Of a stretch of DNA of 64,000 nucleotides, positions 54,405 through 64,000 are shown in pieces. A program made the position numbers and the translations under genes. The notes beneath the pieces are model-generated. The model saw nothing but the letters and a program-made list of their open reading frames with translations, had not been told where the DNA came from and made no database searches. Within the stretch, counting starts at the first letter, position 1; every line of letters starts with the position of its first letter. Source of the DNA: Anaerolineales bacterium (GTDB lineage Bacteria > Chloroflexota > Anaerolineae > Anaerolineales > Villigracilaceae); NCBI GenBank assembly GCA_030680795.1, contig JAUXUL010000045.1, positions 1 through 64,000 of the forward strand, written 5' to 3'.

Positions 54405-57400
54405 ATGCCCCTCCATTCCGATTTTCTTCACGAACTAAAAAAACGCTTCACTGGCGACCTGCGGCTTGATCCTGCTTCGAAGGCCTTGTATTCCACTGAC
54501 GCATCCATGTACCAGATCGAACCGCTGGGTGTGGCCATTCCAAAAACGCAGGATGACCTGCAATTTGCCGTGGAACTTGCGGCAAAATACAAAGTTCCAA
54601 TCCTGCCGCGCGGATCAGGTTCTTCTTTGGGGGGACAAGCCATAGGTGAAGCGTTGATCCTGGACTGCTCACGATATTTGGACTCCATCATCAAAATTGA
54701 CGCTGACTCCCATACTGCAATTGTTGAGCCTGGCGTGATTCTCTCTGATTTGAATCGCGCCGCCTCCAAATATGGTTTGATGTTCGGCCCTGACCCTGCT
54801 TCGGCAGAACGCGCCACGATGGGCGGCGTGATCGGCAATAATGCCACAGGCGCACATTCCATATTGTATGGCATGTCGGCCGACCATTTGATCGAGGCAG
54901 ATGTGATTTTGAGTGATGGATCACCAGGGCGGTGGGGGGAGATAACCAAGGATGAATTAGGAAGGCTGAACGCTTCGCGTGAAAGCGGGGTGAATGGCTC
55001 AATTATTTCTGCCGCCTTGAACATTCGTGAAAAATATTCTGAGGCAATAAAACAAAAATTCCCAAGATCCTGGCGTAATTCAGCAGGGTATAGAATAAAT
55101 TATTTATTACCCTGGTCGCCTTCAATTCCTCCTCAATGGACAAACCCTGAAAATCGCTGGTCGGTTTACGAATCAGGAATCACGAATCACGGATTAAATC
55201 TCGCTCCTTTACTGGCCGGCAGTGAAGGCACCCTGGCGGTGATCCGCCGCGCGACGGTGAATTTAGTCCTCAAACCGAAGCATACGATTTTGGGTGTGAT
55301 TGCTTATGAAAGCATTGCCTCTGCTTGTGATGATGTGCCGCGTTTACTGGAGTTCAATCCCAGTGCAATTGAGCTGATTCCGCGCATGATACTGCAATTT
55401 ACGCGAAGTGTGCCCATGTATGCTCGCCAGATGGGGTGGATTATCGGGGATCCTGCGGCAGTGTTGGTAATTGAATTTAGCGGGGAGCAACTGTCGGTAT
55501 TGAAGGATGCGGTTCGTAGTCTTGGTGATGTATTGACCATTGCAGAGTCCGCAGAAGAACAGAGTCGCGTCTGGAACATCCGCAAGATGGGATTGGGGAT
55601 TTTGGATTCGCGTCCGCAAGTGGCACGACCTGCGGCGTTCATTGAAGATTGCGCTGTGCCTGTGGAACGGCTGGGTGAGTTTGTGCGCGAGATCGAAAGG
55701 ATTTTGGCTGAGCATAAAACGGAAGGTGGGATCTATGCTCACGCTTCAGCCGGCTGTTTGCATATTCGACCGATCATGAATCTGCAGAACGCTGAAGGCC
55801 TGCGCGCGTTACGAAGTGTTGGCGAACAGGTTTTCGCGTTGGTGATGAGCCTGGGCGGCTCGATGAGCAGTGAGCATGGGGATGGAATTGTAGCGGGTGA
55901 GTGGATCGAAAAAACATACGGAGCAGAAGTGACCGCAGCGATGCGGATGTTAAAACGCGCCGCCGACCCGCATAACCTCATGAACCCGAAAAAGATGCTG
56001 GATGCGCCGCCGATGGATTCACATTTACGTTATGGCGAGAACTACCAGACGCAGGCATGGACCTCCGCCTTACATTTTGAACATGAGCGTGGGTTGGCTG
56101 GCGCGATCGAGCAGTGTAACGGTCAGGGTGTCTGCAGGAAGACAACTGATGTCATGTGTCCGTCATTTCAGGCCACAAGGGATGAAGCTTTTAGCACACG
56201 CGGGAGGGCGAATTTGTTGAGGGCCTTGATCACAACGGGAATTGGGAATCGGGAATCGGGAAAGACTCTCCCGATTCCCGATTCCCAAATATCGAATATC
56301 GAAAGCGCAACTTATTCCGCCCTTGACTTATGTTTGGCCTGCAAAGGCTGTACCTCCGAATGTCCCAGCGGCGTGGACATGCCGAGATTGAAATATGAAT
56401 TCATGAATCAATATTACAAGAGCCGCCGCAGGCCTTTGCGCGATTTTCTGTTTGGGTATTTCCATGTGGCTGCGAAATGGCTGTCGCCTGTTGCGCCTCT
56501 AGCAAATTCGTTCATGAAAATGGATTGGTCGCGCAAGCTAATTTCGCGCGTGATGGGGATTACTGATAAGAGGGCATTTCCTGTATTTGCGCGCGGTAGG
56601 TCACGCTTCAAGCGTGACCTGCATTCGGATAAAAAAGTCATCTTTTTATCCGATGTTTTCTCGCGATATCTTGAGCCTGAGGTGGAGCAAGCGGCTTTCG
56701 ATATTTTGAACGCGGCGGGATACGATGTGAAAGTTTTGCCAATGATCGGTGCGGGCGCTTCTTTTCTTTCAAAGGGATTTATCAGCCAGGCGCGCGATCA
56801 CGCGGGAAAGGTATTAGATGCGATCAAGGCCCTCGACAACGGGTCAGGCTTGAGCGTAGTTGGATGCGAGCCTCCAGAGGTGTATTGTCTCAAGCATGAA
56901 TATATCGCTTTACTGCCAGAACGCCGCGCGGAGATTGAGTCGCTTACGAAGCGGGTCTGGTTGGTGGATGAGTTTCTGGTACGAATTCTGGAGTCGGACA
57001 GTTTGCTGTCCGAAAAGTTGCGGGAGCAAGCTCCCGCACTCCAGAAAATTACCTTCCACCCGCATTGCCACCAGCGCGCTGAGGGACCTGCAGACGATGG
57101 TTTGCCGTCAGGCACATCCGCCACTGTTGAGATGCTGCGCATGTTTGGCTTTGACGTGGACTTGATCGATGCAGGCTGTTGCGGCATGGCAGGCACTTTT
57201 GGCTATGATGCCGAACATTACGAGCTTTCGATACAGATCGGGGAGTTGGGAGTGTTGCCGAGGGTTAGGGAGTTGGCCCCCTCCGCCCTCGCAGGCACCT
57301 CCCCCGAATATGACATAGAAACTTTTGATAATAGCCAAATGCCTAATATCAGATTTGGGGGAGGTCGGGTGGGGGTCGTTTCGACTGGCTCGGCTTGCAG

Positions 57401-57491
57401 AATCCAGATCAGGCATGGGACAGGCATCGAGGCCAAGTATCCGCTGGAGTTGGTGAGGGATGTGTTAATTGCGAATTCTTCAAATGGCTAA
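54405..57491 (+). CDS. FAD- and 4Fe-4S-dependent D-2-hydroxyacid dehydrogenase (YdiJ/GlcD-GlcF-fusion type)
   Basis: 1028 residues. The N-terminal FAD-binding domain (about 40-270) has ILPRGSGSSLGGQAIGEALI and MGGVIGNNATGAHSILYG. The FAD-oxidase C-terminal domain (about 290-540) has YAHASAGCLHIRPIMN and SSEHGDGIVAGEW. Two ferredoxin-like clusters follow, CNGQGVCRKTTDVMCPSFQ and CLACKGCTSECPSG. A GlcF-like part with HPHCHQRAEG and DAGCCGMAGTFGYD completes the chain. Such enzymes oxidise D-lactate, glycolate or D-2-hydroxyglutarate at the membrane. Two stretches do not fit the family. Residues about 613-628 come from a perfect 20-bp palindrome (56242-56288). Residues about 965-987 come from another inverted repeat (57297-57365). 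Both keep the frame. The 3' end of the gene is duplicated at 58039. Confidence 0.9.
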   Translation: MPLHSDFLHELKKRFTGDLRLDPASKALYSTDASMYQIEPLGVAIPKTQDDLQFAVELAAKYKVPILPRGSGSSLGGQAIGEALILDCSRYLDSIIKIDADSHTAIVEPGVILSDLNRAASKYGLMFGPDPASAERATMGGVIGNNATGAHSILYGMSADHLIEADVILSDGSPGRWGEITKDELGRLNASRESGVNGSIISAALNIREKYSEAIKQKFPRSWRNSAGYRINYLLPWSPSIPPQWTNPENRWSVYESGITNHGLNLAPLLAGSEGTLAVIRRATVNLVLKPKHTILGVIAYESIASACDDVPRLLEFNPSAIELIPRMILQFTRSVPMYARQMGWIIGDPAAVLVIEFSGEQLSVLKDAVRSLGDVLTIAESAEEQSRVWNIRKMGLGILDSRPQVARPAAFIEDCAVPVERLGEFVREIERILAEHKTEGGIYAHASAGCLHIRPIMNLQNAEGLRALRSVGEQVFALVMSLGGSMSSEHGDGIVAGEWIEKTYGAEVTAAMRMLKRAADPHNLMNPKKMLDAPPMDSHLRYGENYQTQAWTSALHFEHERGLAGAIEQCNGQGVCRKTTDVMCPSFQATRDEAFSTRGRANLLRALITTGIGNRESGKTLPIPDSQISNIESATYSALDLCLACKGCTSECPSGVDMPRLKYEFMNQYYKSRRRPLRDFLFGYFHVAAKWLSPVAPLANSFMKMDWSRKLISRVMGITDKRAFPVFARGRSRFKRDLHSDKKVIFLSDVFSRYLEPEVEQAAFDILNAAGYDVKVLPMIGAGASFLSKGFISQARDHAGKVLDAIKALDNGSGLSVVGCEPPEVYCLKHEYIALLPERRAEIESLTKRVWLVDEFLVRILESDSLLSEKLREQAPALQKITFHPHCHQRAEGPADDGLPSGTSATVEMLRMFGFDVDLIDAGCCGMAGTFGYDAEHYELSIQIGELGVLPRVRELAPSALAGTSPEYDIETFDNSQMPNIRFGGGRVGVVSTGSACRIQIRHGTGIEAKYPLELVRDVLIANSSNG
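56242..56288. repeat. Perfect palindrome inside the D-2-hydroxyacid dehydrogenase gene
   Basis: TTGGGAATCGGGAATCGGGA (56242-56261) and its exact reverse complement (56269-56288) flank a 7-nt loop. The GGGAATC unit is itself repeated. It encodes residues about 613-628, in the linker just before the second Fe-S motif, without breaking the frame. Confidence 0.9.
57297..57365. repeat. Imperfect palindrome inside the D-2-hydroxyacid dehydrogenase gene
   Basis: ACCTCCCCCGAAT (57297-57309) and ATTTGGGGGAGGT (57353-57365) pair at 12 of 13 positions around an AT-rich 43-nt centre. The encoded residues (about 965-987, ending before VGVVSTGSACRIQ) interrupt the normally continuous GlcF C-terminal part. 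Confidence 0.7.
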
Positions 57492-57540
57492 ATCATAAAA
57501 TTTAAGCCGTATAATTGGGATATCCATGTTATGAGGTGGG
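57355..57540 (+). repeat. Duplicated segment, copy A1 (gene tail plus promoter-like region)
   Basis: Covers the last 45 codons of the D-2-hydroxyacid dehydrogenase gene, its stop, an intergenic TATAAT (57510-57515) and ATGAGGTGGG. It aligns with 58039-58223. The first 115 bp are clearly homologous with scattered substitutions and one single-base indel, and the rest is weaker but keeps TATAAT and ATGAGGTGGG at matching positions. Confidence 0.8.
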
Positions 57541-57586
57541 ATGTGGATGAAATGCAGAAGTTTTGTACGAGTAGCGAGGTCCCATT

Positions 57587-57952
57587 ATGTTGACAGTCAG
57601 AGCCGCACTAAAAGATAATGCCGTAACGTTCCTTGAAAATATTGATTTATCCGATCGAGCCGAACGACAAATTCTGATTACCTTCCTTGACGAAAGCATA
57701 ACCGAATTTGGGGATTTAAATCAGCAAGACTTATTAAAGATGGTAAACAATTTGCGTTTCAGTTTTAGCAATAAGGAAATCCAGGTTTTAAGGCTGGCTC
57801 GGGACGGAATGACCAATAAGCAAATCTCGAAAAAACTTAGAATAGGGCATGGCACAGTTCGAAATTATCTTTCAAGTATTTATAAAAAACTACAGGTTAG
57901 CAATCGAACTGGCGCAATTGCCAAAGCAATCGCGCACGGCTTATTGGAATAA
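57587..57952 (+). CDS. Small LuxR/GerE-type helix-turn-helix protein
   Basis: 121 residues. Residues about 60-121 are a GerE domain: FSNKEIQVLRLARDGMTNKQ, ISKKLRIGHGTVRNYLSSIY, KKLQVSNRTGAIAKAIAHGL. The N-terminal 58 residues are helical and show no receiver or autoinducer domain. GAGGT lies 7 bp before the ATG. It sits between the two copies of the duplicated segment (57355-57540 and 58039-58223), directly upstream of the truncated hsdR and Hachiman genes, so it may be a cargo gene or a regulator of that module. The ligand or partner is unknown. Confidence 0.78.
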   Translation: MLTVRAALKDNAVTFLENIDLSDRAERQILITFLDESITEFGDLNQQDLLKMVNNLRFSFSNKEIQVLRLARDGMTNKQISKKLRIGHGTVRNYLSSIYKKLQVSNRTGAIAKAIAHGLLE

Positions 57953-58038
57953 TCATAGTCACAAGGACATTATGCCCAAACCAAAGACAAAATCGCTTTC
58001 CTCTGTCCTAAAGGGTACCTCACCTTGCGAAGTATCCC

Positions 58039-58223
58039 TTGGGGGAGGACGGATGGGGGTGGTTTTGACTGGGCTCGGCTTGCAGAGTCCAGATCAGACA
58101 TGGGACAGGGATCGAGGCCAAGCATCCGCTGGTGCTGATCAGGGACGTGCTGGTGGGAGAGGCCTCAGGTGGTTAATTCATAATATCAGTCTTATAATTA
58201 TAAATCTCAATAATGAGGTGGGG
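58039..58223 (+). pseudogene. Frameshifted second copy of the dehydrogenase gene tail (copy A2)
   Basis: Aligns with 57355-57540. The words CTCGGCTTGCAGA, TCCAGATCAG, CATGGGACAGG, ATCGAGGCCAAG and ATCCGCTGG are shared. An extra G (ACTGGGCTCGG here, ACTGGCTCGG in A1) shifts the frame, so this tail cannot be expressed as protein. The frame would otherwise end with an alternative C-terminus and a TAA at 58173. The copied TATAAT is at 58193-58198 and the copied ATGAGGTGGG now serves as SD region for the hsdR-like gene at 58226. It is a genuine diverged duplicate, not a chance match. Confidence 0.8.
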
Positions 58224-58225
58224 CT

Positions 58226-58849
58226 TTGCGAAAAATTTCCGAAGAACGGACCCGTAAGGAAATGATTGATCCGCAGTTAGAGCAGGCGGGTTGGTATCTT
58301 CGTGACCATGCCAGGGTGAAGATCGAAATCCCCGTGGACGGTTATGATGCCGAGCCGTGGAATGGGGTTTCGGATTATTGCCTGTACCGCGAGAATGGGG
58401 ATGTTTTGGCGGTGGTCGAAGCCAAGCGGACTTCCACCGATGTACGTCTCGCAGAAGCACAGCTCACCTATTACGTTACTGAAATTGAAAAACATCAATC
58501 ATTTCGCCCGTTCGGATTTTTAGCCAACGGACTGGAAATTAATTTTGTGGATGTGGGGATTGCACACAAGCGCGAAGTGTTCGGATTCTTCACGCGCGAA
58601 GATTTGGAAAACCTGCTTTATATTCGCCAGAATGCAAAGCCGCTGAGTTCCATTGAAATCAACAACGAAATCGTTGACCGAACGTACCAGCACGAAGCCA
58701 TCCGCCGGGTAAGCGAAGAGTTTGCCAAGGGCAAACGCAAAGGCTTGATCGTCATGGCAACAGGGATAGGCAAGACACGCACGACGATGGGTTTGATTGA
58801 CGTGTTCATGCAAGAATTGAAGGGAGGTTGTTTAGATGGTAGCTCCTGA
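58226..58849 (+). CDS. Truncated type I restriction HsdR: N-terminal nuclease domain up to Walker A
   Basis: 207 residues against roughly 800-1100 for HsdR. Residues 1-140 are the HSDR_N nuclease domain with the catalytic set D50 (GVSDYCLY) and E65-x-K67 (AVVEAKRT) intact. TYQHEAIRRVSEEFAKGKRK and Walker A ATGIGKTRT (178-186) start the helicase part, which ends after GLIDVFMQELK. The last residues are novel and the stop (58849) lies 14 bp inside hamA. The start is TTG with AGGTGGGG upstream. It looks like the stump left when the Hachiman module joined an hsdR gene. Because the nuclease residues survive, a stand-alone function is possible. Confidence 0.8.
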   Translation: MRKISEERTRKEMIDPQLEQAGWYLRDHARVKIEIPVDGYDAEPWNGVSDYCLYRENGDVLAVVEAKRTSTDVRLAEAQLTYYVTEIEKHQSFRPFGFLANGLEINFVDVGIAHKREVFGFFTREDLENLLYIRQNAKPLSSIEINNEIVDRTYQHEAIRRVSEEFAKGKRKGLIVMATGIGKTRTTMGLIDVFMQELKGGCLDGSS

Positions 58850-59702
58850 ACAGAAGAAACTAGAAGAAACCTGTTGGTCGTCAGAACATCTTAAGTGGCT
58901 AAAAGACACAGGGGAGAGATTAACAACGGCTGATGGTAAAACTGTAGAAGTTTGGGAGTTTTGCCATGAAAGAGAGGATGCTGTTCTATCTTCATGGGTT
59001 AAGCACTTTAGAAATCATTATTGCTTTGATACGGAAATAGATTATTTGAGAAAAGGATACGGCTTTTCACGAACCGAGTATCTAAATAAAATCAAATTTC
59101 CAGATGCCGCTGTTGCTCCTGGACCAGGTGTTCGATCAGGCGATTTTGGAGAGATATTAATCGCAGATTATTTAGAGTTTTTTCTTGGCTTTTGGGTTCC
59201 AAGAGTACGTTATGGTTTAAAAGTGATAGCCAACGAGTCGTCAAAGGGTTGTGATACTTTAGGTTTTCTATTTGCAAAAGAAGGCGAAGAATCCCCCAAA
59301 GATATTATGGCGGTGTATGAAGCCAAGGCACGATTAACTGCCGATCAATTAACAGACGGCAAAAAATTATCAGGTGTTCAGGCGGCAATTAATGATTCTG
59401 CCAAAGATAGATTGAGAATTGCCGAATCGTTGAACTATATTAAGCAACGTTTCTTTGAAAAACATAATATCACTGATGCAGATCGAATTGAGCGCTTTCA
59501 AAATCTAGACGACCGTCCGTATACTGAAATCTACGGTGCGGCAGCCTTATATTCATTCGATTCATATATTCCAGAAACCATAAGTAGCGCAATTACTAAA
59601 GACCATCCCAAAAAAGATGTGCTTCGCCTAATTGTCATAAAGGGCGAAAAATTGATGGATCTTGTTCATGAGCTTTATAGGAGAGCTGCCGATGAAGCCT
59701 GA
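58836..59702 (+). CDS. hamA: Hachiman anti-phage system nuclease subunit HamA (DUF1837)
   Basis: 288 residues of the DUF1837/HamA family. SGDFGEILIADYLEFFLGFW (E106), SKGCDTLGFLF (D140) and AVYEAKARLT (E162, K164) form a PD-(D/E)XK-type nuclease site. The later AALYSFDSYIPE and a C-terminal helical segment are also usual. In Hachiman, HamA is held inactive by the helicase HamB and released when HamB meets damaged or single-stranded DNA, then degrades DNA and stops phage growth. GGGAGG lies 8 bp before the ATG, inside the end of the truncated hsdR. hamB starts 11 bp before its stop. Confidence 0.85.
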   Translation: MVAPEQKKLEETCWSSEHLKWLKDTGERLTTADGKTVEVWEFCHEREDAVLSSWVKHFRNHYCFDTEIDYLRKGYGFSRTEYLNKIKFPDAAVAPGPGVRSGDFGEILIADYLEFFLGFWVPRVRYGLKVIANESSKGCDTLGFLFAKEGEESPKDIMAVYEAKARLTADQLTDGKKLSGVQAAINDSAKDRLRIAESLNYIKQRFFEKHNITDADRIERFQNLDDRPYTEIYGAAALYSFDSYIPETISSAITKDHPKKDVLRLIVIKGEKLMDLVHELYRRAADEA

Positions 59703-62700
59703 TGTGCGGTCACGGCGAGTTCTCAGTATTACGCAATCCAAGGCAAAGATGTATGAATATAGTGTTCCTTTGGATCAGCACATTGCTCTTACCGCCGACC
59801 CCTCAAGACTTTTTCCGTTAACTATAGGAATGTTAGGTGATATTTCCGCTAAAATTAATGTTGGGGAGGCAACTGCTGCCGATATTCAGGAATTACGAGA
59901 CAGTCTACCTTTTTCTGCGCGATTTTTTGATGCTTTTGTTGAAACCCGACTGAATCAAGAAAATGATCCATATATTCAGTTGTTAGGTTCTGCCGCTTAC
60001 TATTTGTGTAATTTGTCTGGCAGTTCAAATATTCTTGCTGATCGAATCCAGAATCCAGAAATTAATTTTGAAACACAAGGGCTGGAAAAGCTTTTATTGT
60101 GGTTATTATTAATTAAGGATTTCCCAGCTACTTTTCCAGATGTTCTTGATAGCATTTACAAAGGGACGATTGATGCGATTCGCGCGTTGCTACTGCAATT
60201 TAACGAAACGGGTTCGCAAATGGCTGCCGCGTTAGATGCGGCTCGCCAGCTAAGGAATATTGCTTATGAACTAGGCACACCTAAAGAATTATTATTAGCG
60301 GATTTGATCGGGGCAATAATTCGAAAACGGTTTGATAATTCAACTTGGAATTGCTTACCAAAATATACAGATTTGCCAATTGAAACTTGGGCAGAAGTCA
60401 TCAAAAAGAAAACCTTTATAAAGGAATTCTGGTCAGCACAACATTTACTTGGAGAAAAAGGGGTGTTTAAAGGCAAGTCAGCGGTTGTACAAATGCCTAC
60501 TAGTGCTGGAAAAACAAAAGCAACTGAAGTTATTATCAGAAGCGCATTTTTATCGAAGCGTACAACTCTTGCAGTAATAATTACCCCATTCAGAGCGCTA
60601 TGTCACGAAATTAGACAGGGGTTGATTACCGCTTTCCAAGGCGAAGATATATTTGTTGACGAGTTGTCAGATGTGCTCCAAATGGATTTGTCCATTGAGA
60701 GAATTCTGCAATTTCAACAAGTGCTTGTGGCAACTCCTGAGAAGTTCAACTACGTTGTAAGACATGCCTCCGAATTAGCACCTAAGATAGGATTAATCAT
60801 TTATGACGAAGGACACCAGTTTGACAATGGTACACGGGGAATTACTTATGAACTCCTGCTTACATCTCTAAAAGCACGTATTCTCGATACTACTCAGATT
60901 GTCTTGATATCCGCAGTAATCAGTAACGCGAGTCAAATCGGGCAATGGCTTATTGGCGATGACGCCGAGCCAGTTATTGGTCTTAATCTTGCCCCTACAT
61001 TTCGCAGTGTTGGTTTTTCAACAAGAATAGATCCTAGGCGAAATCTTTATTTTGTTAATCATCTAAATCCAGATGAATGGGAATATTTTGTACCAAGAAT
61101 TATTGATCAATATCAAATTGACGAAGAAACGATTTTCCCTAATGTTAACGTAGGTAGGGAAGTCGCTCTATATTTGGGTTTGAGACTTACAAACCAAGGC
61201 ACAATAGCCGTTTTCTGTGGGCGAAAACTTGATGTGACTGGAATGTGCAAACTTATAACTGACATTTTTGAGAAAGGGTTGCCCATGCAACCTCCGTTGG
61301 AGTTTTCTAACAAGGTCGAAATTCAAAAACTCAAATTTCTACATGACGGCAATCTTGGTGAGGATGCAATTATGTCAAAAAGCGCTGAACTTGGCGTTTT
61401 TGCCCACCATAATAATGTCCCTCATGGAATTCGCTTAGCAATAGAATACGCGGTTAAGAAAGAGGATGCCAAATTTGTTATTTGCACATCAACATTGGCG
61501 CAAGGGGTTAATTTACCTATTCGATATTTGATAGTGAGTCGTGTTGACCAAGGCGGAGAGAGAATATTAGTTCGGGATTTCCAAAATCTAATTGGAAGGT
61601 CTGGTCGCTCTGGAATGCACACAGAAGGTAGTATTCTGTTTGCTGATTCGAGAATTTATGATGAACGTAACAGTAATGATTACACAAAAGAGCGTTGGCA
61701 AACAGTCAAAGAATTGTTGGATCCATCAAAGTCTGAAAAGTGCGAAAGCAAGCTTTATTCAATATTCAATCCTTTGCATGGAACCACCCCCGAATCACCA
61801 TACAACAACATTGTAAATTTTGTCCAAGCTTACACAGCGGGTGCTCTTTCAGAGATTGCGCAAGTGGTGCAACAACAAAACACAGATAATGAAGCATTCA
61901 ATTTAGACGCACTTCAACGAGAAATTGATTCAAAAGTGAATATCATCTCGGCAATAGAAAGTTACTTAATGTCTAACTGGGATTCGACGCAAAACATATT
62001 AGACCGCGATGAGGTTAGAAATTTGGCAATTGGCACTTTAGCTTATTTTTTAGCAGTTGATGATGAACAAAAGAAACAAATTGAAGATTTATTTATTCTC
62101 TTGGCGCAGAATATTGAGACCAATATTCCCGATGTTTCCAAAAGGCTAATCTTCGGCAAAACTCTTTACGGAGTCCCAGCAAGTGTTGCAATATCAGCTT
62201 GGCTTGATGAACATGGAACTGAATTGTCGGCTTCTCAAAACGAAACTGAAATATTCGAAGTAATATGGGGTTTACTGGAATCCAATATCCACAACAATCA
62301 GTTTAGAAAATGCGATAAGCCTGAATCTATGAAAAAAGTAGCTTTTGAATGGTGTCACGGAATACCGTTCAATGAATTGTTGGAAATTATCAAGCAAGAT
62401 GATGCAAGACGCCGAGCAAAATCTAGGCGTATCAGATATACCCTAGAAGACGTTGTAGATGTTTGTGAAAATGGCTTTGCTTATGACGGTATTCTTGTGT
62501 TAGGAGCTGTGATTGAATTGGTTCCGACTCTGGCGATAGACAATAGCGATATTGTCGTTAATTCTCTTCAAGAGTTTCAAAAGCGGCTCAAATACGGGCT
62601 GCCATCGCAAATAGCAGTTGTGCTTTACGAACTTGGTTTTGCAGATCGGGTAGTTGCGATAGAACTTAGCTCGATTTTCCAAGAAGTTGAAGGCAACAAG

Positions 62701-62805
62701 GATATTGTTTTACAAGCCTTAAAAGCACGACGTGAAGAGGCTTTTATTGTCTTAGACAAATATCCTGCTTATTTTCGACAGGTTTATGCCAATGTAGCAA
62801 CATAA
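59692..62805 (+). CDS. hamB: Hachiman anti-phage system helicase subunit HamB
   Basis: A 1037-residue SF2 helicase. Motif I is PTSAGKT (269-275), motif II is DEGH (372-375) in LIIYDEGHQF, motif III-like is VLISAVISNAS, and motif VI is QNLIGRSGR (631-639). The N-terminal 250 residues and long C-terminal region have no catalytic signature I can see and presumably hold HamA. It unwinds DNA and acts as a damage sensor in the HamAB complex. The start at 59692 has AGGAG; the longer frame from 59662 lies within hamA. The gene is AT-rich relative to the core genes, fitting horizontal transfer. It overlaps hamA by 11 bp. Confidence 0.86.
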   Translation: MKPDVRSRRVLSITQSKAKMYEYSVPLDQHIALTADPSRLFPLTIGMLGDISAKINVGEATAADIQELRDSLPFSARFFDAFVETRLNQENDPYIQLLGSAAYYLCNLSGSSNILADRIQNPEINFETQGLEKLLLWLLLIKDFPATFPDVLDSIYKGTIDAIRALLLQFNETGSQMAAALDAARQLRNIAYELGTPKELLLADLIGAIIRKRFDNSTWNCLPKYTDLPIETWAEVIKKKTFIKEFWSAQHLLGEKGVFKGKSAVVQMPTSAGKTKATEVIIRSAFLSKRTTLAVIITPFRALCHEIRQGLITAFQGEDIFVDELSDVLQMDLSIERILQFQQVLVATPEKFNYVVRHASELAPKIGLIIYDEGHQFDNGTRGITYELLLTSLKARILDTTQIVLISAVISNASQIGQWLIGDDAEPVIGLNLAPTFRSVGFSTRIDPRRNLYFVNHLNPDEWEYFVPRIIDQYQIDEETIFPNVNVGREVALYLGLRLTNQGTIAVFCGRKLDVTGMCKLITDIFEKGLPMQPPLEFSNKVEIQKLKFLHDGNLGEDAIMSKSAELGVFAHHNNVPHGIRLAIEYAVKKEDAKFVICTSTLAQGVNLPIRYLIVSRVDQGGERILVRDFQNLIGRSGRSGMHTEGSILFADSRIYDERNSNDYTKERWQTVKELLDPSKSEKCESKLYSIFNPLHGTTPESPYNNIVNFVQAYTAGALSEIAQVVQQQNTDNEAFNLDALQREIDSKVNIISAIESYLMSNWDSTQNILDRDEVRNLAIGTLAYFLAVDDEQKKQIEDLFILLAQNIETNIPDVSKRLIFGKTLYGVPASVAISAWLDEHGTELSASQNETEIFEVIWGLLESNIHNNQFRKCDKPESMKKVAFEWCHGIPFNELLEIIKQDDARRRAKSRRIRYTLEDVVDVCENGFAYDGILVLGAVIELVPTLAIDNSDIVVNSLQEFQKRLKYGLPSQIAVVLYELGFADRVVAIELSSIFQEVEGNKDIVLQALKARREEAFIVLDKYPAYFRQVYANVAT

Positions 62806-62895
62806 TGCAAAGTTTAAACATTTCGCCCTGTATGGATTTGCCACTTCCGAGAAACTTCTAGCAGTTTTCGTATTTGTTGTTTTTGAAGCGGCTGG

Positions 62896-63105
62896 ATGAC
62901 CGCGAGAACGCGGCTGAGAGGCAGGCAAAACGCAAGGGGGACGGCGTGGAAAGATGGTCTGTGGTCTCCACTTGCGGGCGTGGTGGCGCGGGCGGTTGTC
63001 GAGCCTAGTCGAGACATCGAGGGTCTGCGGGGGCGGATGGGGGAGATTGAGAGGCAGGTGGATGGGTTGTTTGAGTCCCTTTTGAGTGAGAGTTTTGGAA
63101 GATAG
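62896..63105 (+). pseudogene. Gene remnant, C-terminus resembling HsdS-type specificity subunits (copy B1)
   Basis: The frame ends LRGRMGEIERQVDGLFESLL followed by SESFGR and a stop. This is like the C-terminal coiled-coil end of type I specificity subunits (pattern Q-VDxL-xSLL-xxxF). Upstream coding sense is lost, and another frame reads LKRLDDRENAAERQAKRKG across 62886-62942. It lies directly after hamB and reappears at 63554-63696. The rest of the 363-bp gap between hamB and the next gene (62806-62895) shows nothing recognisable. The HsdS assignment rests on about 25 residues and is tentative. Confidence 0.45.
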
Positions 63106-63169
63106 TATTTCTATTGTTTTCGAGCTTGATTTTAAAAGTCGGCGTGCTATGATGGTATTGGAGGACGCC

Positions 63170-63529
63170 ATGAATAAAACCCTCAAACAAACTTTGTTCT
63201 GGACGCCGCGTGCTGCGGGCATCCTGTTTATATTATTTCTCAGCATATTCGCATTGGACATTTTCGACATGCAGCTTGGATTCTGGGGAACTATCGTCGG
63301 ATTGTTCATGCACCTGATTCCCTCCATTCTGCTGACGATTGCCATCATCATTGCTTGGAAGCGGGAATGGGTCGGCGCTGTGTTGTTCATCGGATGGACA
63401 ATCTGGTACGTGTCGTTCATGCGGGGATTTGATTGGATTGCGTATGTGCTCATCGCAGGCTTGCCCGCGTTGATCGGTCTGCTTTTCCTTGCAGGCTGGG
63501 TTTGGAGAAAGCAGATTCACGCTGGCTGA
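63170..63529 (+). CDS. Small four-helix membrane protein of unknown function
   Basis: 119 residues. Four hydrophobic helices (about 15-33, 38-60, 66-80, 88-110) with short loops. The start MNKTLKQTLFWTPRAAGILF is preceded by GGAGG at 7 bp; the frame to 63086 runs back into the upstream remnant. It ends WVWRKQIHAG. I do not recognise a functional family, though small proteins of this pattern are common and uncharacterised. It is flanked by the duplicated HsdS-like tails B1 and B2, so it may be a cargo gene of the accessory region. Confidence 0.72.
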   Translation: MNKTLKQTLFWTPRAAGILFILFLSIFALDIFDMQLGFWGTIVGLFMHLIPSILLTIAIIIAWKREWVGAVLFIGWTIWYVSFMRGFDWIAYVLIAGLPALIGLLFLAGWVWRKQIHAG

Positions 63530-63553
63530 TGCACCAGTAGGCGATGGCACGGG

Positions 63554-63696
63554 TCGAGGGTCTGCGTGGGAGAATGTCCGAGGCGGGGCTCGCCGTTTAA
63601 GGCTCGCGAGGCGGGGAGGCAGATGTCGTGCTGAGCCTGTCGAAGCATGGAGAGGTTGTTTGAGTCCGTGTTAAGTGAGAGCTTTAGAGGATAGAA
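63554..63696 (+). pseudogene. Second copy of the HsdS-like tail, interrupted by a repeat (copy B2)
   Basis: Shares TCGAGGGTCTGCG at its left end and GTTGTTTGAGTCC with AAGTGAGAG(C/T)TTT and GAGGATAG at its right end with 63017-63106. The final frame reads MERLFESVLSESFRG and stops at 63691-63693. Between the two shared parts lie about 60 bp that include GTGCTGAGCCTGTCGAAGCA, a dispersed-repeat word, so this copy is broken by an insertion. Confidence 0.65.
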
Positions 63697-63699
63697 ATT

Positions 63700-64000
63700 A
63701 TGTGGATCTCTCCGTCGTTCCAAGATATTGATTATCCGTTCCCGCACTCACTTGATACAAAAATCATCCTTTTTGAAGATAGGGTACTTGGGTGGAAACT
63801 AAACATTGCCGACCAGATGATAAACGGTAACAAGGAACAACCAGCGATTAACCATTCTGGATACGCTACGTTGGATGTTGTTTTCAGCTATTTTGAAATG
63901 TTCGCAAAATATGAAGGTGGCTTTGCAAAGTTAGGAAAATCAGAGGATTATTTCAAAGTAGGTGTTTATTCTGTATTTCCAGAATTTCATCACATACCAA
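63700..64000 (+). CDS. Hypothetical protein, N-terminal part (runs off the window)
   Basis: An open frame of 100 codons from an ATG at 63700 to the window edge, starting a few bases after the HsdS-like tail B2. The visible part begins MWISPSFQDIDYPFPHSLDT and includes NHSGYATLDVVFSYFEMFAK. It looks like a soluble alpha/beta protein without signal peptide. Codon choice and a lack of stops over 300 bp support a real gene. No family was recognised. It could be another cargo gene of the accessory region. The SD is weak (GAGGATAG at 63687). Confidence 0.6.
   Translation, partial: MWISPSFQDIDYPFPHSLDTKIILFEDRVLGWKLNIADQMINGNKEQPAINHSGYATLDVVFSYFEMFAKYEGGFAKLGKSEDYFKVGVYSVFPEFHHIP

Follow-up and report, generated by a model that had tools for sequence, protein, structure and literature searches.

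The window analysed here is a 64,000-nucleotide (nt) stretch of contig JAUXUL010000045.1 from an Anaerolineales bacterium (genome G000). A glcD-like gene anchors a variable defence hotspot here, at whose left edge the last part of this gene occurs twice, together with the leader that follows it, on either side of a small LuxR-type gene. The second copy runs into the remnant of a type I restriction gene, hsdR, and the two genes of a Hachiman defence system. We compared this locus with those of a genus sample of 57 genomes, that of the window included, which are mostly drafts, several loci stopping at contig ends. From left to right, the features at this edge are as follows, where REP stands for repetitive extragenic palindromic.

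54405-57491, + strand: glcD-like gene for a flavin adenine dinucleotide (FAD)-linked oxidase/iron-sulphur protein of 1028 amino acids (aa), the conserved left anchor of the hotspot; Pfam FAD_binding_4, FAD-oxidase_C and Fer4
57277-57376, no strand: REP-like palindrome inside glcD, in frame; hairpin z -4.8 against single-base shuffles
57355-57540, + strand: copy 1, glcD tail, stop and hsdR-type leader with no hsdR behind; TATAAT at 57510-57515, ATGAGGTGGG at 57531-57540
57587-57952, + strand: LuxR-type helix-turn-helix gene (luxR), 121 aa; Pfam GerE 4.7e-17
57998-58060, no strand: REP-like palindrome in decayed form, at the left boundary of copy 2; 57985-58065 folds with -30.1 kcal/mol (z -2.5 relative to single-base shuffles)
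58039-58222, + strand: copy 2, frameshifted glcD tail and leader, contiguous with hsdR; TATAAT at 58193-58198, ATGAGGTGGG at 58213-58222
58226-58849, + strand: hsdR 5' stub, whose likeness to hsdR stops at codon 195; HSDR_N and start of ResIII
58836-59702, + strand: HamA (Hachiman); PADLOC HamA 1.4e-105
59692-62805, + strand: HamB (Hachiman helicase); PADLOC HamB E 0

The tail part of copy 1 consists of the last 45 codons of the glcD-like gene, a gene matched in 60 of 61 genomes. The two copies align over 34 nt at 88% (57355-57388 with 58039-58072, spacing 684) and over 115 nt at 79% (57387-57501 with 58072-58186, spacing 685), the step in spacing being due to one extra base in copy 2, which is its frameshift. 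BLAST joins both pieces in one alignment of 163 columns at 79.1% (57355-57516 with 58039-58199). Local alignment of 57340-57560 with 58020-58240 gave a score of 160, whereas none of 1000 single-base shuffles scored above their maximum of 31, so that chance is excluded for the block as a whole. A 221-base query against the 3.45 Mb genome returned itself and 58039-58199 (E 1.8e-32), and no third copy of the block, at E <= 0.001.

A first-pass annotation, made from the letters alone, had described the gene end, its stop, TATAAT and ATGAGGTGGG as standing twice around a 121-codon LuxR-type gene, with the second copy frameshifted by one base, diverged and leading into truncated hsdR and Hachiman genes, and the alignments and profile matches bear it out on each of these points. 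Its extension of the likeness beyond the first 115 bp held in part. Taken alone, this portion scored 20, a value equalled in 9 of 1000 shuffles and carried by the 10-mer ATGAGGTGGG, and its homology is supported by the presence of the same motifs before hsdR in relatives; past GAGGTGGG the copies have no likeness (467 of 1000 shuffles reach the score). Likewise, the DNA left of 57355 and 58039 is not alike (901 of 1000 shuffles), and tblastn adds a weak protein-level piece of glcD left of copy 2 (57981-58073, 38.6%), equivalent to the REP region of that gene.

The luxR gene is the sole open reading frame (ORF) of at least 60 aa lying wholly between the copies. Its first 60 residues match nothing but themselves in the own genome and nothing in 395 other genomes of the class. 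When the protein was compared with 61 genomes, foreign matches covered mostly residues 50-120, and a few of the matches listed extended back to residues 8-34, at 31-44% identity. Among GTDB r220 contigs 18 loci were matched, of which the eight inspected are the helix-turn-helix part of larger proteins, many of them with a response-regulator-like beginning. Viral contigs yielded no relatives, and no source for luxR was found in the 61 genomes, the 396 genomes of the class (first 60 residues), the GTDB r220 contigs or the viral contigs. The first codons behind the copy 1 leader resemble those of hsdR no more than shuffled sequence does.

The hsdR leader and the gutted restriction operon

In two relatives, G001 and G026, the glcD tail and leader are single and a complete hsdR (911 and 914 aa) starts 44-52 bp behind glcD; then come a P-loop nucleoside triphosphatase gene (KAP, a provisional label given without a domain scan), hsdM and hsdS. 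At this site luxR is not present, and the locus thus exists in the form without luxR for which the first-pass annotation had proposed a search. The segment from the tail of copy 2 through hsdR codon 195 (58072-58811) aligns unbroken to the junction of G001 (81%) and of G026 (79%). Because the same contiguous order is found in both, tail, leader and hsdR stand in their ancestral order in copy 2, which is the original left border of a type I restriction operon, and the duplicated "promoter" is the conserved leader of hsdR itself.

TATAAT and GAGGTGG both occur within 60 nt before 9 of 16 hsdR starts, hand-picked from about 24 hsdR 5' regions and including copy 2 of the window among the nine, and both also occur in copy 1. 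The motifs are kept even where other genes part glcD from hsdR (G004, G014, G017 and G021); of the other seven starts, that of G237 is truncated where the stretch ends, that of G029 has TATAAT only, and the rest have another leader. Copy 1 thus carries a leader of the hsdR type, behind which luxR takes the position of hsdR. A further hsdR start was seen on the minus strand in G456 (L152 19141-19261), and G021 has a second, more decayed one reaching codon 26 (L155 1652-1772), behind which an ORF resembles, by eye, the hsdR C-terminus.

The first-pass annotation had also given the regulator and the defence operon the same promoter. The same leader does precede both, and luxR and Hachiman would each lie behind one copy of it, but the leader is hsdR's own and shared regulation of the two would therefore be a by-product. 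A promoter role is suggested by the motifs; a sigma-70 scan found two sites in the region against 1.9 in shuffles, neither of which takes the TATAATs as -10. Both leaders may be active, another type of promoter or none being possible.

Behind copy 2 the restriction operon has been gutted. Its hsdR 5' end, to codon 195, is joined to Hachiman, and scraps of hsdM (residues 32-57) and hsdS tails remain at the right, whereas hsdR, hsdM and hsdS are complete in G001 and G026. HamA and HamB lie adjacent, and HamB was matched in four of the 57 genomes of the genus, weakly in two. In G021 a HamB protein 89% identical is located about 656 kb away from the glcD of that genome, behind an hsdR fragment. 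The corresponding DNA match (86%), directly preceded by another hsdR 5' fragment, starts at position 58753 of the window, inside the stub of hsdR. The junction between hsdR stub and HamA is thus common to two species and two chromosomal places, and stub and HamAB may have moved as one unit. The second Hachiman locus of G021 (L173 7198-11384) lies away from glcD, behind hsdR fragments.

Hotspot content and hsdS-tail arrays

Downstream of glcD we mapped 23 loci, that of the window and those of 22 relatives, several of the stretches ending at contig ends. An hsdR of at least 753 codons was found in six, only remnants in five, and no hsdR within the fetched stretch in 12; in G036 glcD directly adjoins the right-flank gene. 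With conserved flanking genes, variable defence content and empty sites, the site is a variable defence hotspot. The likeness to hsdR ends at codon 34 in G032, 60-61 in G025, G029 and G461, 102 in G004, 195 in G000 and 302 in G030 and G462 (adjacency to glcD is not established for G461 and G462), and stubs of such unequal length precede differing cargo, namely Hachiman, TIR, AAA/TPR and P-loop genes. Pfam matches within these frames and arrays include ORC-CDC6-like, NB-ARC with TPR and HEPN AbiU2 (G029), AAA with TPR, and TPR (G030), TIR and PfkB (G461), and HAD, radical SAM and SWI2/SNF2 (G025). In G032 an hsdS tail follows about 18 nt after hsdR codon 34. Upstream of their stubs, G030 and G032 also have hsdR-like fragments (E ~1e-5).

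At the right end of the window the remains of the operon alternate with small genes:

62857-62947, + strand: hsdM scrap, residues 32-57; 95.6% to G026, 84.6% to G001
63017-63098, + strand: hsdS 3' tail, copy 1, hsdS residues 334-372; 75.6% to G026
63086-63529, + strand: DUF7670 gene (Pfam) between hsdS tails; a second copy lies beyond the window
63545-63688, + strand: hsdS 3' tail, copy 2, with short inserts
63700-63999, + strand: start of a 204-aa gene between hsdS tails; no Pfam match, and its G013 homologue adjoins an hsdS tail

Past the window this order continues with further hsdS tails (about 64301-64471, 64920-65012 and 65570-65688), the first of them following the 204-aa gene, then the second DUF7670 gene and more tails to 65.7 kb, up to the right flank, a 212-aa gene (p210) on the minus strand at about 65.96-66.6 kb. 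A 515-bp direct repeat at 96.5% (63058-63571 and 64433-64947, the latter past the window in L058) comprises the hsdS tail end and DUF7670 and flanks the 204-aa gene. In G001 a DUF7670 gene at 96% identity adjoins the genes of the hotspot's right flank, which lie on a contig other than that of glcD. The REP-like family is also present at 65768-65869, and other short inserts lie within hsdS tails.

A BLAST search with the last 144 nt of the G026 hsdS returned 62 pieces distributed over 15 of 35 loci, some belonging to intact hsdS genes and every one on the strand of the operon; six of the 15 loci (G016b, G027b, G169, G237, G461 and G462) are hsdR loci without established adjacency to glcD. Other gene-tail copies flanking short genes, for which the first-pass annotation had proposed a search, thus exist in this island and in relatives. 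The view that the hsdS tail is a dispersed repeat was rejected for 63015-63110, which has four matches in the own genome, every one of them at C1:63-65 kb. Successive tails at least 200 bp apart, merged by hand and without a control set of gaps, left 24 gaps, to which 11 of the 12 loci used contributed. The longest ORF between tails runs along the array in 19 of the 24 and starts at most 34 bp from the tail end in 14 of these 19. The left boundaries of 35 displaced tails fall between positions 9 and 57, with clusters at 26 (six tails) and 36-40 (14 tails).

Some array families recur across species, such as a 103-aa protein in G021 and G461 (88%), a family of about 100 aa in G013, G021, G029 and G030 (40-63%), and a 123-residue match between G000 and G016 (78%) among the genes between tails. 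Small array proteins of 98, 103, 104, 124, 153, 204 and 291 aa have no Pfam match (L104 12489-14500, L094, L103, L151 and L101), and the Pfam-less proteins of this kind are candidates for new defence genes.

Origin of the duplicated block and comparison with known systems

We consider end-displacement recombination at the edge of the hotspot to be the best reading of the duplicated block, with a probability of roughly 0.6. A fragment from a relative, carrying the 3' part of glcD and the hsdR leader, but luxR instead of hsdR, would have paired on its left with glcD by homology, and on its right would have been joined without full homology, probably at the REP-like palindrome before copy 2. The native side of tail, leader and hsdR would thereby have been pushed downstream instead of being replaced, giving the order tail, leader, luxR, tail, leader, hsdR. 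The hsdS-tail arrays at the other end may have arisen by a similar displacement or by unequal exchange. Of the cargo insertion with duplication of the target end, or recombination scar, that the first-pass annotation had proposed, a scar beside cargo remains, and the simple insertion duplicate does not, copy 2 being contiguous with hsdR as at the ancestral edge.

Divergence of glcD is consistent with such an import. Relative to G001, the closest of four genomes compared, glcD differs by 19.6-21.3% and the neighbouring mutS and gpmA by 9.0-9.7%, a 2.0-2.4 fold excess, which suggests an imported glcD allele in one of the two lineages, G000 or G001; relative to G013 (partial coverage), G004 and G021 the excess over the neighbours is only about 1.1-1.5 fold. 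The decayed palindrome is the likely right junction. The REP-like element in glcD has seven matches in the own genome, itself included, and more than ten in G001.

Several observations weigh against this reading. The excess divergence could lie in G001 and not in G000, and mutS/gpmA and glcD of G001 are on two contigs whose adjacency was assumed. The p-distance between the copies is 0.21, compared with 0.257 and 0.295 to G001, and they form the closest pair in 1742 of 2000 bootstraps (105 sites in both cases). No donor with glcD, leader and luxR was found in the genomes and contigs searched, and among 61 genomes the duplicated glcD tail was seen in this one alone (matches listed down to E ~5e-6). 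At the other end, five of the 24 ORFs between tails oppose the direction of the array (for one of them, in G017, an ORF of equal length, 124 aa, runs on the opposite strand), and the 100 nt upstream of the 35 displaced hsdS tails (11 loci, tails merged by hand) are not folded more than 440 random stretches (p 0.12). REP-like palindromes as a general cause of junctions are thus unsupported; many of the 14 tails with a left boundary at 36-40, a split made post hoc, are preceded by strong hairpins.

A serious rival, although a rather improbable one, is that REP, tail and leader were duplicated within this genome, either by slippage or by an ectopic exchange in which REP-like palindromes paired, and that luxR arrived from elsewhere. 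The mutual closeness of the tails fits such an event, both copies share, at 88% over 34 bp, the right half of one REP-like element that is missing in G001, and the 515-bp direct repeat at the right end indicates that duplications do occur here. Nevertheless, the copies differ at 21% of sites, little below the 26-30% that separates them from G001, so that the duplication would be old and yet is seen in no relative. Moreover, the first 60 residues of luxR are without relatives in all 396 genomes, and REP-like sequence at the same glcD site in G004 and G016 weakens the argument from the shared element.

Far less probable is a site-specific integration, in which a small element bringing its own gene 3' end would have used the gene tail as attachment site, as do elements that integrate at the 3' end of icd in Escherichia coli (a literature search gave nothing plainly on point). 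The in-frame gene end in the new copy, the displaced and decaying old end and the repeated hsdS tails with genes between them would suit it. Against it, a search limited to the tyrosine recombinase family PF00589, which did not extend to serine recombinases, transposases and the other ORFs of the island, found no match in the island, the nearest lying about 40 kb to the right of its end, at C1:105820; moreover, luxR is the only ORF of at least 60 aa wholly between the copies, the left boundaries of the hsdS tails vary, and two unrelated gene ends would need to serve. Least credible of all is a complete second glcD, an old tandem paralogue with luxR in between, which would account for the decaying gene end and the weak tblastn piece left of 58039 but which we judged unlikely in view of the DNA left of 58039, where likeness to glcD does not exceed that of shuffles, and of the 22 relatives mapped, in none of which the C-terminal part of glcD recurs at the site (one short G026 match lies in a REP); in addition, the tail followed by hsdR is itself the order of G001 and G026.

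Going beyond end displacement at this one edge, we may speculate, at long odds, that the ends of the type I operon serve in this genus as reusable docking ends, the hsdR leader and 5' stub at the left and the hsdS tails at the right. Defence systems would be swapped between them and small genes added singly behind hsdS tails, in integron-like arrays built without an integrase, and the luxR gene between two glcD tails would be the left-end version. If true, this would be an integrase-free route to building arrays of defence genes. More generally, turnover at the hotspot does not cleanly replace the old restriction operon; its ends stay, the old leader may drive expression of the new genes, and some of the sequence of events can be read from the scars. 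The hsdR stub and the hsdS tail also provide search patterns for as yet undescribed defence genes.

Integron cassette arrays are rows of small genes, mostly in one orientation and separated by repeats, with families common to the arrays of different species. The arrays described here are alike in their small, mostly co-oriented genes between repeats and in families recurring across species, but their repeat is an hsdS coding tail, their boundaries vary, and the island has no tyrosine recombinase match. The enterobacterial immigration control region, a defence island between yjiA and yjiN, offers another parallel, as it has fixed flanks, alternative type I and other defence genes, and an empty site in some strains (PMC12707154). 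Unlike what is described there, the ends of the former occupant (hsdR 5' stub and hsdS 3' tails) are visible here and the end of a flanking gene is duplicated. Among the papers listed in literature searches, none deals, by its title or the beginning of its abstract, with arrays of hsdS tails or with other defence systems set between hsdR stubs; such work may exist.

The first-pass annotation knew no named element of this structure. None may be needed, and the pattern resembles end-displacement recombination: homology-facilitated illegitimate recombination (HFIR) was proposed for the immunity arrays of the type VI secretion system (T6SS) of Vibrio cholerae, and displacement of rhs C-termini is cited in the same source (PMC5361080). 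As in those arrays, incoming DNA would have been anchored by one conserved region, the old 3' gene end and the genes behind it are pushed downstream in the same orientation (copy 2 and all 62 hsdS tail pieces lie on the + strand), and repetition would lead to arrays; the cargo lacks homology in the recipient, the N-terminal part of luxR being present in one of 396 genomes, the own. An anchor with an illegitimate junction would fit the excess divergence of glcD and the decayed palindrome, less so the mutual closeness of the tails and the lack of a donor among the sequences searched. Compared with the T6SS and rhs arrays (PMC5361080), the anchors here are glcD, a metabolic gene, at one side and hsdS at the other, and the cargo consists of defence genes, a LuxR-type regulator and small genes instead of effector-immunity pairs. 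The process is of a known kind, and its setting is unusual.

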